A stretch of 33,827 nucleotides of DNA, from positions 1 through 33,827 of the IMG/VR virus record IMGVR_UViG_3300042526_000622; one strand, written 5' to 3'. The notes beneath the pieces were generated by a model. That model was not told the origin of the DNA. It made no database searches and saw nothing but the letters and a program-made list of their open reading frames with translations. Below, one piece after another: positions 3,546-31,373 of this stretch; the first letter of the stretch is position 1, and every line of letters starts with the position of its first letter. The position numbers and the translations under genes were made by a program. This stretch comes from a virus.

Positions 3546-4403
3546 TCAGAAAGTCCCGCCATCGATGCTTGGTGGTAGATCATTTAACTCTGACATTAGC
3601 ACAGGAGTGCCATCAGATGACCCAACCCATATACGCTTATCGGAAATATTTACCGCCAGTTCATAGGCCGCCAAAGAACTTGGAACGGCTGAAGCAGTCG
3701 TGCTGCGCTTGGGTCGAATAATGTTTGCCGGTGTTGGGCTTGGGCTTGGACTGGGTGTTGGAGTAGGTGTCGGTGTTGGAGTCGGTGTTGGTGTTGGTGT
3801 TGGCGTTGGTGTAGGAGTCGGTGTTGGCGTTGGTGTAGGAGTCGGTGTTGGTGTAGGGGTCGGTGTTGGAGTTGGGGAACTACAAGCCCCTGCGGTAACT
3901 GTGGGGGCTGATGCTGTACCATAATCAGTGGACCAAAGGCCAGTTAAGGTTGATGCGTAATAAAGTCTAGTGGAATCATTAATGATTTCATAAGACCCCA
4001 TCATGCCGTAACCCATTTTTAAAAGGGGCTGGGTGATGTGCTGCCAATATCCAGACATGAATTGGTTGTATGAACTAGAATTAAAACTGTAAGTGCCATT
4101 AGCTACTGTCGTTCCCGCACTTGCCACACAATAAGGATCTACTAAACAGGCTCCCTCTGTTAGCGTTGGTGCTGTTCCTGTACCATTACCAGACACATTC
4201 CATCCAGTTAAAGGTGGGGTAGCACTATAACTAGCCGCAGTGTATCCTTCCGTACTGAAGTTAATAAAATACCAAAGCCCATCACCATTATAAACAATCT
4301 TAGATGAAGCGTTGTCTGTTTTTCGGTATTCACCCGCTGCATAATAATCAAAGGTTCCATTGTAAAATGATGTACCAGCATTTTGGACGCAATAACTAGG
4401 CAT
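3546..4403 (-). CDS. Receptor-binding-type fibre with duplicated domain and Pro-Thr linker
   Basis: Three parts are visible. Residues 1-165 hold two related copies of an aromatic domain of about 80 residues, each starting with YCV..AGT...NGT and ending with P(T)xTxGAC; such repeats occur in phage fibre tips and may bind glycans (inference). Residues about 168-222 are a low-complexity Pro-Thr then Pro-Ser linker. Residues 226-285 hold the shared fibre adaptor ([15 protein letters not shown]...YELAVN) and end in IDGGTF, as do two neighbours. The order is inverted compared with the other fibres, with the adaptor at the C-terminal end. It is coupled to the upstream fibre by overlapping start and stop at 4403. 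Confidence 0.8.
3724..3880. repeat. Low-complexity GT-rich tandem repeat encoding Pro-Thr linker
   Basis: About 150 bases of degenerate hexamers (GGTGTT, GGAGTC, GGCGTT and similar on the plus strand) encode alternating Pro-Thr on the minus strand. Third-position variation between units suggests the protein repeat is maintained by selection, while slippage can alter linker length. The alternating Gly-Val frame on the plus strand is only its shadow. Confidence 0.9.
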
Positions 4404-25275: not shown

Positions 25276-25950
25276 TTAGCCGTAAGTTCTGACCGATGCA
25301 TCCACTATCATTCTTGCTGGTGGTTCCTCTACTGGTTTCTCCTTAAACCTTTTGGCTATCCGGTCTAGGATATCATCCAAGGGTTTGTTTCCATTGGGTG
25401 CTAAGTCATTCAGGGTTTTAGCTAGGTTGCGTTCGGATTCTTCACATGCTGCCATCTGGCGCATCCAGTCTGGATTCCTGAGTTCATAAATTTCCAAGGT
25501 CATGATGGATTTTTTGCCTTCACCTGAAGCAGTGCTTTTAAATGGCAAACTGTTAATACAAATACAGCTTACCCAGCATTTGCTTTTGGATGACCAGATC
25601 CCATTTTTCACATGGGCTAAGAATGGCACCAGAACTAGACCAGTGCCCCTGCACATCGAGCAATCGGAAACCTCAGGTTTAATTGTTCTGCGGTAATTCT
25701 CCCTGCGGATCCGTAAAGCCTTTTCTAATTCGTGAATGGTTTCCTCTCTTTTGAATATTTTGACCCCTGTCAGATCCTTGGATGCTGCCAAGAGTTCTTC
25801 AGGTCCATAACCCTCTGATGCAAAATAGGTTGACCAGGCTAAAAGCATTTTAAGTTCTCTTTCTTGATCCCAGCCGTAGAAGGTGGAATGAAACTGAATC
25901 CAATCGGGCCAATCGAAATAAGCTGCGGTTGAGTCAATAGTGATATTCAT
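25276..25950 (-). CDS. Cys-cluster protein paired with replication initiator
   Basis: A 224-residue protein. Residues 1-90 are helical (DQERELKMLLAWSTYFASEG). Around residues 97-131 a Cys cluster CSMCRGTGLVLVP then CWVSCIC could bind zinc; CRGTG resembles the DnaJ zinc repeat. The C-terminus is helical (DDILDRIAKRFKEKP). It overlaps the initiator gene by four bases (ATGA), the position lambda-like phages use for their helicase loader, so a loader or initiator partner is a fair inference. No ATPase motif is present. Confidence 0.65.
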   Translation of the reverse strand: MNITIDSTAAYFDWPDWIQFHSTFYGWDQERELKMLLAWSTYFASEGYGPEELLAASKDLTGVKIFKREETIHELEKALRIRRENYRRTIKPEVSDCSMCRGTGLVLVPFLAHVKNGIWSSKSKCWVSCICINSLPFKSTASGEGKKSIMTLEIYELRNPDWMRQMAACEESERNLAKTLNDLAPNGNKPLDDILDRIAKRFKEKPVEEPPARMIVDASVRTYG

Positions 25951-26741
25951 GGTTGAACCCTCTGTGGTAACTGAAATCCTCTAGGCATTGCTGATAAAGC
26001 TGCCTGCAGGTCAGGCTTGGCTTTGCCATTGGTTTGGAAGCTTCTTGGTTGAGCTGGCCTATCTGTTTGGGTTGCCATCCATCTGGACAGGAATGATGGC
26101 ATTCCCTTTGCCGTTTTTCGCTTAGATGTATTGGTCTCTGCCCAAAGCTTGGCTTTTTTAATCCAATCCAAAATAGGGGCATCTGGATAGGCTTCTTGGA
26201 TCTGATCAAAAAGCTTTTGAGTTAGTGACCATGTCTTTGGATTTCCTACACATGGAAAGATCATTTCAGGTTGGTAAAGTTCTGGGCTGGTTGGCTCAGA
26301 GATGGGAACCAGCTCAGAGCAGGTGTCTGCCTCTCCTCTCCTCTCTCTCTCCTCTGTCTCTTCCTCTTCTCTTCTCTCCTCTACTCTAGGCACTGTTTTG
26401 CACACATCTGCTTGCAGGTTGCTAGCATCTGCTTGCATAGTGCTAGCATCAACTTCTATAATTTGAAATAAACCTTTATCCAGTAATGACTTAATACCTT
26501 TTAGGCATTCAGCATCAGTAACCCTCAACACCACTGCAATGTCTTCAATGCTGTAAGGTATGTGCCCATCTGTATAGGTACTAGCTAAAATCCACAACAT
26601 GGGGCAAAGTGACCTGCCGAACACATCTAGCCTAAGAAATGCAGGGTCCATCAGGCACCCTCTGTGCAGTTTTATCCAGGGTGGATTCCTGTTCTTGTAG
26701 TGTTGAAAGTTGGACCAGTTTTTAGGTACTAGGAATTGCAT
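25947..26741 (-). CDS. Replication initiator (phage replisome organiser type)
   Basis: A 264-residue protein. Residues 1-96 form a winged-helix domain of the replisome-organiser kind (FQHYKNRNPPWIKLHRGCLM, then YTDGHIPYSIEDIAVVL and IKSLLDKGLFQI). Residues 98-111 are a repeated heptapeptide DASTMQA/DASNLQA. Residues 121-137 are extremely acidic and basic (EERREEEETEERERRG). A C-terminal domain follows. The repeats in the linker DNA look like iterons, as in lambda O. Expected role: bind the origin and recruit helicase. The ribosome-binding site is weak. Confidence 0.8.
   Translation of the reverse strand: MQFLVPKNWSNFQHYKNRNPPWIKLHRGCLMDPAFLRLDVFGRSLCPMLWILASTYTDGHIPYSIEDIAVVLRVTDAECLKGIKSLLDKGLFQIIEVDASTMQADASNLQADVCKTVPRVEERREEEETEERERRGEADTCSELVPISEPTSPELYQPEMIFPCVGNPKTWSLTQKLFDQIQEAYPDAPILDWIKKAKLWAETNTSKRKTAKGMPSFLSRWMATQTDRPAQPRSFQTNGKAKPDLQAALSAMPRGFQLPQRVQP
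26330..26450. other. Candidate replication origin inside the initiator gene
   Basis: Two adjacent 21-base repeats at 26409..26429 and 26430..26450 match at 18 of 21 positions; each contains the palindrome GCTAGC. They are followed at 26330..26382 by a 53-base polypyrimidine/polypurine tract with one interruption (G at 26356). Iterons plus an unwinding-type tract inside the gene for the initiator is the layout of the lambda origin. The tract is not A/T-rich as in lambda, so unwinding by triplex or strand asymmetry would be needed. Confidence 0.5.
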
Positions 26742-28258: not shown

Positions 28259-29299
28259 TTACTCCCTACTAATTTCAGCTTCCCACCTTTTGATGTGAGT
28301 AGATGCAACACTTAGGAAATGTAAAAACTGGATTCGCTGTTCTGGATTAAATCTAAGGTTCTTAATATTGCTTCTAGTTAAAAAATTTGCAGCGGCTGTC
28401 ATCGTGGTTATAGCCTGATTGATCTGTCGCTGATCTTCTCGCATCCCAGTTGTAAGTTGGGATTCTTGCAGCTTCACATCGGAAACTTTCTCAATGTCTT
28501 GTATGATTTGATCAGTTGAATTCCCCAAACTATTCCCAGCTTTAATCAGTTGCTGTACAGTAGGAACGCTCAATGAAGCCCCTGCATTAAGGATGCAGGT
28601 AGCAAATTTTATATTTGCTTTATCATCATTCCTTTTTAAAATCTGCCAAGAATCTTCAAGCACCCCCCTCTTCATAATGTCGATTTTTTCTTGCGGTAAC
28701 CCAGACCTCTTAAGCTCCCTTTTACTTTGCTCGATTTGGAAATTACTTCTAAGGGTTGCCATTGGAATATTAAAGTTTTTGGCTTGCTCCATGAATAGCG
28801 TTGCTAAATTTAACAATGGGTTTTTATCCAATAGCTTGCACACCTCTTGGGTAGCCTGTTTGATTGCTATCTTCTTTCGTTCTATTGGGTCATTCATAAC
28901 CCCATGAATATCATTGGCTCGTGAAGAAATTGCGTAACAGATATCATCAGAAACTTTATTATCAAGAACATATGCAGGGATTTGTTCCAAATCCTTAGCA
29001 AACACATAATGCCTATGCCTGCCATCTATAACAGAATGTGTACCATTAAAATTTTTCCTAACAATAATAGCAGGGAATATGGCACCTGCCTTACTATCAG
29101 CCTCTAAGTCCTCAATTATTTTACTGGATAAGTGAGAGTTATTAGGGTGAGTTCCTTGATTCAAAATCCTGACTTGGAAGCTAGAAGATTGTGAAATTTT
29201 CTTGGTTGGAACATATTCCAGAGTAGCCTCCACCTGAAGATCTTGGAAAAGGTTTTCGGTTTGTATGTGCTTGTGTTTTATTAATTCAACTGCTGTCAT
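28259..29299 (-). CDS. ParB-domain DNA-binding protein
   Basis: A 346-residue protein from the ATG at 29299, which has GAGG six bases upstream. Residues 33-120 form a ParB/Srx-like domain: FQVRILNQGTHPN, then FPAIIVRKNFNGTHSVIDGRHRHYV (quoted in parts: AIIVRKNF and SVIDGRHRHYVFAKDL). The GRHR motif corresponds to the nucleotide-binding G-x-R-R of ParB. The rest is helical. Such proteins act in partition, regulation or DNA modification. It lies directly after the folded non-coding block at 29330..29501, which is a possible binding site. Confidence 0.75.
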   Translation of the reverse strand: MTAVELIKHKHIQTENLFQDLQVEATLEYVPTKKISQSSSFQVRILNQGTHPNNSHLSSKIIEDLEADSKAGAIFPAIIVRKNFNGTHSVIDGRHRHYVFAKDLEQIPAYVLDNKVSDDICYAISSRANDIHGVMNDPIERKKIAIKQATQEVCKLLDKNPLLNLATLFMEQAKNFNIPMATLRSNFQIEQSKRELKRSGLPQEKIDIMKRGVLEDSWQILKRNDDKANIKFATCILNAGASLSVPTVQQLIKAGNSLGNSTDQIIQDIEKVSDVKLQESQLTTGMREDQRQINQAITTMTAAANFLTRSNIKNLRFNPEQRIQFLHFLSVASTHIKRWEAEISRE

Positions 29300-29329
29300 T
29301 TGTATCCTCAAAAAAAAGGGTTTTAAAAA

Positions 29330-29501
29330 TATCAGGCTGGCTAGTCTGACAACAAGTCAGGTGTGTTACTAAGCCAATATCTCATATGGCATAACCAGCC
29401 TGATAAGCTCATGAATACGATTGCTGTCAGTGGGTGGGTGCTGACAGCCCCATCAAGGTTGTCTCAGGGGCAATGATAACCCTGCCACCCCTAATGGGTG
29501 G
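29330..29501. other. Highly structured intergenic element
   Basis: The 190 bases between the SSB-like and ParB-like genes hold no gene but many inverted repeats. A perfect 11-bp stem (29330..29340 with 29395..29405) encloses two hairpins (29346..29350/29356..29360, and 29373..29380/29384..29390 with one bulge), forming a three-way junction. Beyond it lie an 8-bp hairpin (29423..29430/29441..29448), a 5-bp hairpin (29465..29469/29480..29484) and a 6-bp hairpin (29485..29490/29496..29501). It could be a structured RNA, a partition or origin site, or an operator region. Confidence 0.6.
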
Positions 29502-29502
29502 T

Positions 29503-29955
29503 CTAGAAGGGCAGTTGATCCAGTTCAGCCTGGAGATCTGCATTTGATTCTGATAGCTCATCCAATCCAATAGAAGGGTAACCATTAGATGTGGTGCTTT
29601 TGTGGAAACTCAGGATGTGATTGGTCAGAGTTTCGCCAGCCTTGATAAGCTCATTTTCGTAAGGCTTATTAAACTTTGGCCCCCATGCTTCAACATCAAA
29701 GCCAAGTCTGCCCAAGCTGGTTAGAAGTCTTCTTAAATCTGCATCAGTCTTCAACCAATAAGTGATCTGAGTTTCAACTCCTGCAAGCATCACCTTAATT
29801 TGATAGGTTTGCTTTTTCTCACCAGTTTCCTTAATAGTTATTTCAACAAAACCAGCAAAGGAAATCTTTCCTGAGTATTTGCCATCTGCAAGGTCATTAG
29901 CTTTGGCAAACTTTGACTTTGATTTCAAATCCTGTTGCTCATTCATAAAATCCAT
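29503..29955 (-). CDS. SSB-like single-stranded DNA-binding protein
   Basis: A 150-residue protein with an OB-fold-like beta pattern (GKYSGKISFAGFVEITIKET, then TYQIKVMLAGVETQITYWL) and an acidic tail ending ELDQLPF. That ending resembles the DDIPF tip by which SSB recruits partners. It sits with Gp157 and an annealing-protein candidate, a common phage recombination set. A GGAG lies eight bases before the ATG at 29955. Confidence 0.7.
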   Translation of the reverse strand: MDFMNEQQDLKSKSKFAKANDLADGKYSGKISFAGFVEITIKETGEKKQTYQIKVMLAGVETQITYWLKTDADLRRLLTSLGRLGFDVEAWGPKFNKPYENELIKAGETLTNHILSFHKSTTSNGYPSIGLDELSESNADLQAELDQLPF

Positions 29956-30491: not shown

Positions 30492-31210
30492 TATTTAGCC
30501 CCCATCTTTTTGGCTATCAGCTTTTCAGCATCGATCCGTTGAGCTTCTACCAACTGATCCACAGAGGTGACTTTGTAGTATTTCAGCATGGCTTGCATGG
30601 TGCCAGGGAAAGCATGTTCAACTGCTAGGCATGCATCTTGAAAAGTTTCCATGGGCTTATGCTCATCAACTACTACTGGTGCTGCCAGAGCTGCGACAAC
30701 AGGCCTAATAGGTTGGGCTTGAATCTGGGATTCAACTTCCGTTTCATCTAACCAACCAAGACCGCAGATAGATAAAGTGACCCTGCGCTTAGCCTTGGTT
30801 TCAGCACACATAAGTTTGTTGGATCTGGCTTCACCCTGCAAACCCTTAAGGGAAACCACCCCACAGGATTCATCCGTTCGACCTGTCATATCCTCAGCTC
30901 GAGCTGTTACTGTGTAGATATCTTCAACCAGTTCCCTGCTCAGGATCTGAATAGATACCCCATGAAGTTTCCGTAACTGATCAGAACAAGCCCTAGTTGC
31001 GTATAGCTTCAACTTCCCACCCAAAGGGATGAACTCAAAGGGCTGGGTGTGTGGGTTTAGGCCAAGACTTTCACAGACCCTAAGGTAATAGGCTGACCTT
31101 TGATCTTCACTCAGGGTAGATAGATCACCCTGGATAAGGACTGCATCCGTTTTGATAGCTGCCATTTCAGCAGGTTTACCAGTATTATTTTTTGTCTTCA
31201 AAGCTGTCAT
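30491..31210 (-). CDS. Single-strand annealing protein candidate (RecT/Red-beta-like)
   Basis: A 239-residue protein from the ATG at 31210, with AGGAAG six bases upstream. The core reads CESLGLNPHTQPFEFIPLGG, KLKLYATRACSDQLRKLHGV, and later ETKAKRRVTLSICGLG. This resembles the N-terminal part of RecT/Bet proteins (G-L-x-P ... GK..YA). It forms a set with Gp157 and the SSB-like protein, supporting a role in strand annealing during replication and recombination. No paired exonuclease is obvious; the PD-(D/E)XK-like gene at 24686 is a candidate. The family is suggested, not proven. Confidence 0.65.
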   Translation of the reverse strand: MTALKTKNNTGKPAEMAAIKTDAVLIQGDLSTLSEDQRSAYYLRVCESLGLNPHTQPFEFIPLGGKLKLYATRACSDQLRKLHGVSIQILSRELVEDIYTVTARAEDMTGRTDESCGVVSLKGLQGEARSNKLMCAETKAKRRVTLSICGLGWLDETEVESQIQAQPIRPVVAALAAPVVVDEHKPMETFQDACLAVEHAFPGTMQAMLKYYKVTSVDQLVEAQRIDAEKLIAKKMGAK

Positions 31211-31373
31211 TAAATACTTCCTGTCGATAAATTTTAAAACTTCTTGGCCCATCAAAACCTAATTGATAGGATCCATCCACTGCTCGCTTAAGGGTGACCA
31301 CCAGAATCTTGTTCGGGTCGGATTCATCCCAGATCAACACTGACTCATTCACTTTTCTTTCTAATACCAGCAT
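31185..31373 (-). CDS. csrA: CsrA/RsmA carbon storage regulator homologue
   Basis: A 62-residue protein starting MLVLERKVNESVLIWDES, the classic CsrA start (MLVLxRK). The core VVTLKRAVDGSYQLGFDGPR and IYRQEV matches the five-strand fold; Arg50 corresponds to the RNA-binding arginine of CsrA. Bacterial CsrA binds GGA motifs in mRNA leaders and usually blocks translation. The loop near residues 16-22 is slightly longer than usual. A strong AAGGAG precedes the ATG. It overlaps the next gene by 26 bases. A phage copy could act on host or on phage mRNAs. Confidence 0.92.
   Translation of the reverse strand: MLVLERKVNESVLIWDESDPNKILVVTLKRAVDGSYQLGFDGPRSFKIYRQEVFNDSFEDKK

Follow-up and report, generated by a model that had tools for sequence, protein, structure and literature searches.

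The non-coding gap behind the SSB-like gene of the phage sequence analysed here almost certainly encodes a member of a previously undescribed, real and functional family of structured RNAs in environmental phages. The sequence is IMG/VR virus record IMGVR_UViG_3300042526_000622, the entire 33,827-nucleotide stretch of which we refer to as the window and whose phage genes lie nearly all on the minus strand. The element is about 175 nt long, comprises six helices including a three-way junction, and has its shape preserved through compensating paired substitutions across dozens of relatives, which is why we regard it as a functional RNA. It is uncommon for an RNA family supported by covariation to be missing from Rfam, to occur in phage contigs only and to be linked to a single gene.

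A two-domain RNA maintained by compensatory change

The element is present in 43 other IMG/VR contigs, in one copy each and with 29 distinct full variants. Proteins encoded next to the element served as one set of queries for these relatives, and DNA patterns derived from the element itself as a second, independent set; the latter, which did not start from SSB, found the element solely behind SSB genes. In all complete cases the covariance models R1 and R2, one for each half, place the two domains next to each other. By blastn the element matches none of 50,697 phage and none of 72,556 plasmid records, its 56 pattern matches in bacterial genome contigs are all chance matches, and 297 genomes of one order gave two weak model matches (L201 and L202), both inside cellular genes and without domain 2. 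Rfam 15 returned nothing at the gathering threshold over the window (best on the element E=5.8, unrelated miRNA/snoRNA families), and ARAGORN found no tRNA or tmRNA in it.

When compared with dinucleotide shuffles the minus (gene) strand of the element folds exceptionally well (z -5.43, 0 of 200 shuffles as good) and the plus strand less so (z -2.27). The densely folded gap between SSB-like and ParB-like genes, from which the original prediction had started, is thus real, although about 203 rather than 190 bases separate the SSB-like stop codon from the next ATG. Likewise present are the perfect stem (29331-29341 with the 29395-29405 region) that encloses two hairpins and the 8-bp hairpin containing CTGACAGC (29423-29430 with 29441-29448). 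The layout had however been read on the plus strand; its stems exist, but the RNA is the minus strand and the order of the domains is reversed, with domain 1 (P1-P3) at the 5' side and the three-way junction (P4-P6) at the 3' side (Table 1). Of the three further hairpins that had been named, the third, if CCACCC/GGGGTGG was meant, is not conserved: this competing hairpin is broken in the L010, L013, L037, L049 and L065 types, whereas P1 (consensus CCCAUY/RAUGGG) is kept in all variants. The surmise of a new structured RNA belonging to no known family has held, given the covariation in the 43 other contigs and the lack of an Rfam match, and covariance analysis of homologous intergenic regions, which had been named as a check, finds the stems kept by compensatory change.

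Table 1. Positions in the window of the RNA element, its parts and the genes around it
Feature	Sequence	Position	Strand	Basis or remark
Whole structured RNA element, two domains, ssb stop codon to conserved GATATTT		29327..29506	-	Models R1 and R2 (covariance); also in 43 further contigs
P1 5' strand	CCCAUU	29493..29498	-	Paired in every sequence; topmost pair U-G, C-G or U-A
P1 3' strand	GAUGGG	29449..29454	-	Covariance alignment, domain 1
Part of J1/2, candidate pseudoknot strand	GGGUGG	29485..29490	-	Complementary to P3 loop; invariant in all relatives
P2 5' strand	CAGGG	29480..29484	-	Double changes at 4 of 5 pairs
P2 3' strand	CCCUG	29465..29469	-	Covariance alignment, domain 1
P3 5' strand	GCUGUCAG	29441..29448	-	Double changes at 5 of 8 pairs
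P3 loop	CACCCACCCA	29431..29440	-	CCACCC (29432-29437) able to pair with GGGUGG
P3 3' strand	CUGACAGC	29423..29430	-	Covariance alignment, domain 1
Linker joining domains 1 and 2	AUUCAUG	29410..29416	-	Nearly invariant
P4 5' strand	AUCAGGCUGG	29395..29404	-	Double changes at 4 of 10 pairs
P4 3' strand	CCAGCCUGAU	29331..29340	-	Covariance alignment, domain 2
P5 5' strand	GCCA	29387..29390	-	GCC/GGC, GGC/GCC or UCC/GGA in 22 of 22 distinct sequences (script)
P5 3' strand	UGGC	29373..29376	-	Script check, same 22 sequences
P6 5' strand	CUGAC, loop UUGUU	29356..29360	-	Double changes at 4 of 5 pairs
P6 3' strand	GUCAG	29346..29350	-	Covariance alignment, domain 2
SSB-like gene, constant upstream neighbour		29503..29955	-	150 aa, OB fold (predicted), C-terminal tip DQLPF
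Downstream gene, weak ParB_N match, varies beside element		28259..29311	-	ATG at 29299
CsrA-like protein gene		31185..31373	-	Pfam CsrA E=2.7e-10, above cutoff

In divergent types MAFFT failed to align P2 and P5 correctly, and covariance-model alignments were used instead; P5, which is misaligned in some rows of the domain 2 alignment too, was checked separately by script. With the caveats that the sequences are related, so that counts of cells do not represent independent events, and that the alignments were fitted to the structures tested, domain 1 (26 distinct sequences) is paired in 99.2% of cells, has 9 doubly changed pairs and reaches a covariation score of 0.383 (shuffles: 0.163, with 0 of 500 attaining the observed score), and domain 2 (22 distinct sequences) is 95.0% paired, also has 9 doubly changed pairs and scores 0.255 against 0.109 (again 0 of 500). 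Sliding the partners by 1-3 columns lowers the score of domain 1 to at most 0.066 and destroys the pairing support of domain 2 as well. The compensatory changes are spread over five helices, come in several combinations and are visible in the raw sequences; moreover, RNAalifold on the full alignment also recovers P1, P3, P4 and P6. We infer that domain 2 folds as a three-way junction. For domain 1 a pseudoknot is possible: formation of P1 leaves the invariant J1/2 (GGGGUGGC) free, and its GGGUGG could form six pairs with CCACCC in the P3 loop, whose ACCCACCCA is invariant across all relatives. Covariation is silent on this interaction because neither side varies.

Within the helices counted (P1-P3, P4 and P6) G-U occurs 30 times and A-C not once; 19 of the 30 fall on one P1 position, and six positions in four helices contribute in all. 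This asymmetry identifies the minus strand as the structured one and favours RNA over single-stranded DNA. The latter, as an assembly site, an origin or a site for SSB or recombination, would suit a location amid SSB, Gp157 and other early genes, and for the STAXI motif, which occurs near SSB genes, a role as DNA has been entertained (PMC2864571); yet a DNA structure would not explain why the coding strand tolerates G-U with A-C never seen, nor why that strand outfolds its complement in 7 of 7 tested variants by energy and in 6 of 7 by z-score, and we consider it very unlikely. The same asymmetry, which points to an RNA of one strand, disfavours the second replication site that had been suggested for the gap. 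Three other candidates were rejected. No frame stays open across variants, whose lengths fall in all three phases, as a small protein would not allow; a U tract, as in an intrinsic terminator, is confined to the types of the window, L002 and L003, and a terminator scan found none at the element; and the spacing from the SSB stop codon to P1 differs by 1-2 nt between variants, unlike that of a readthrough signal.

A constant upstream gene and an exchangeable downstream slot

The element begins 0-6 nt past the stop codon of an SSB-like gene in 45 of 45 contexts with upstream flank, a few of which are overlapping loci of one contig. The SSB-like family falls into at least four sequence groups that are 35-45% identical to one another, and all members end in an acidic tip followed by LPF. 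A modest AlphaFold model (pLDDT 73) and a Foldseek match to PrgE (8s4t, E=6e-5) suggest an OB fold whose nearest relatives are the ssDNA-binding protein PrgE and RPA. Altogether 42 of the 44 SSB relatives found are followed by the element. The two others, L146 and L147 (3433-3506), carry in its place a simple 10-bp hairpin, GGGTGGTGGA...TCACCACCC, and then ATATTTTAAA; this hairpin resembles the GGGUGG/CCACCC pair of the element.

The gene after the element, in contrast to this constancy, belongs to any of 11 unrelated clusters. The ParB-like one, whose Pfam ParB_N match in the window (E=0.01) is below the cutoff, follows in no more than three contigs, the window among them, and a partition-like site for that protein, as had been proposed, is thereby rejected: a parS-like site should stay with its ParB gene. 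The variable slot (L008/L058, L013, L043, L012 and others) is possibly a hotspot for accessory genes. The fold does not take in the start codons of the next genes or their Shine-Dalgarno-like sequences, the ribosome-binding sites lying a few tens of bases past it, and the operon runs through the element. A position exactly at the start of this slot, whichever gene occupies it, would be expected if the nascent RNA modified RNA polymerase in cis so that the variable genes behind are transcribed, for which the HK022 putRNA, a folded phage RNA acting on polymerase, is a precedent (PMC9378689). Such a put-like role is nevertheless quite improbable, as an element of about 175 nt with a three-way junction, located several genes into an operon, has little in common with putRNAs of about 70 nt, and as it would leave the linkage to SSB unexplained. 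About equally improbable is that the element represents a new class of riboswitch or of self-cleaving ribozyme: a possible pseudoknot, a three-way junction and many invariant unpaired bases are features of such RNAs, and the element has no Rfam match, but the downstream genes share no common pathway, their start sites are not covered by the fold, and no known catalytic core is found in the element.

Both flanks of the element have been exchanged. The elements of the window and L043 are 98% identical, their SSB genes 54% at the nucleotide level and their downstream sequences 53%, which is background level; L013 and L035 give the same figures (SSB 54%, element 98%, downstream 53%). Conversely, L002 and the window (28259-29955) share downstream DNA that is 99% identical next to SSB proteins that are only 43% identical, which places a recombination boundary at the element. 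By these comparisons the element is an RNA island within a mosaic, its flanks swapped on both sides, and a fixed point between exchanged SSB genes and exchanged downstream genes. The element itself appears to recombine too, since P3 and P6 variants are found in all four combinations. Such island-like inheritance, together with two compact domains, many invariant unpaired bases and a single copy per contig, would be in keeping with a small RNA that is processed from the ssb 3' region and acts in trans, its position merely supplying transcription. We regard this as unlikely, because neither a promoter nor a terminator belonging to the element is seen to be conserved, the operon continues through it to the ribosome-binding sites beyond, and constant linkage to SSB is unexpected for a freely moving sRNA gene. 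Rather unlikely as well is an autonomous RNA of two domains (pseudoknot and three-way junction), handed from phage to phage as a module whose flanks are unrelated, that would work with the phage SSB or recombination machinery in a catalytic, ligand-binding or protein-assembling capacity and represent a new functional class.

The order of genes is that of an early recombination-type operon: CsrA-like protein, an unnamed 254-aa protein, Gp157, SSB, the RNA and the variable genes. A replication protein (PHROG 26426) is encoded at 25947-26741 on the minus strand, so that within the early region the element has the Gp157/SSB cassette on one side and replication genes on the other. Of 28 contigs that extend far enough upstream, 25 carry the CsrA-like gene, about 1.7 kb ahead of the RNA; in L049 and L050 that place is taken by an ORF that looks like CsrA but is more divergent. 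That the element is a target or sponge of this protein, encoded in the same cassette and well supported by its Pfam match, is nonetheless highly improbable. CsrA sites require GGA, usually in hairpin loops, and GGA is absent from 21 of 29 element variants, which makes direct targeting unlikely; moreover, L146 and L147 have the CsrA-like gene without the element. Elsewhere in the window, an ORF with a long Pro-Thr repeat (PTPTPT...) is found amid tail-region genes (3546-4403, minus strand). No host was assigned from TerL, whose best matches within the phylum of the Pirellula genome are only 47% identical, compared with up to about 46% for known phages.

A possible role on the ssb message

What, then, might the element do? 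A constant SSB gene, strand and distance combined with a changing next gene are most simply read as those of a cis-acting element of the ssb message, and we tentatively suggest, at somewhat under an even chance, that the element with its proposed folds serves retroregulation or feedback from the 3' side of that message. It would presumably be transcribed together with the SSB gene, and both domains would then act in cis on the ssb message, with decay and processing blocked or directed at the element and the ssb cistron thereby controlled apart from the variable genes behind it. The invariant loops would probably be read by a protein, either SSB itself or an RNA-binding protein of host or phage, as the large number of bases that are unpaired yet never vary suggests recognition involving a protein or a tertiary fold and not the stem alone. 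Two points count against the proposal: an element serving stability alone could do with fewer such bases, and nearly identical RNAs stand beside SSB genes of only 35-45% identity, so that the recognition surface of SSB must be conserved if SSB does read the RNA. Against action on ssb altogether stands that L146 and L147 manage without the element. The covariance model can be searched with at once, and an RNA of 175 nt is easily tested for cleavage and for binding of a ligand, SSB or RNase.

Relation to known systems

The sib element of phage lambda effects retroregulation of int and is a simple hairpin cleaved by RNase III. Like sib, which acts on the message of the gene before it, the element is a phage RNA structure fixed on the sense strand directly past a stop codon, here that of SSB; it differs in being a far larger fold with invariant loops. 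A structured RNA directly behind one gene family is also seen in the L17 downstream element (RF01708), for which feedback regulation from the 3' side has been proposed (PMC2864571), with phage precedent for regulation of upstream genes cited alongside. That element follows a ribosomal protein gene in Lactobacillales and Listeria, whereas ours follows an SSB-like gene and does not match the Rfam model. The STAXI motif, an RNA candidate of unknown function near SSB, topoisomerase, antirestriction and integrase genes (PMC2864571), shares with the element the proximity to SSB genes and the pseudoknot, the latter only a candidate here; yet STAXI is a short pseudoknot repeated two or three times in tandem, whereas the element is a single copy of two unlike domains, one a three-way junction. 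The HK022 putRNA is likewise a folded RNA of a phage operon and acts in cis, but consists of two stem-loops in about 70 nt, downstream and close to early promoters (PMC9378689), as opposed to six helices. Finally, precedent for an SSB mRNA with a folded control element comes from the translational operator of T4 gene 32, in which the message of an SSB bears an RNA pseudoknot that is read by the SSB (PMC535899). The T4 operator is short (a pseudoknot of about 28 nt) and located in the 5' leader. Should the element prove to act on the SSB message, a phage SSB would have a regulator situated behind its gene, opposite to the textbook arrangement of gene 32.
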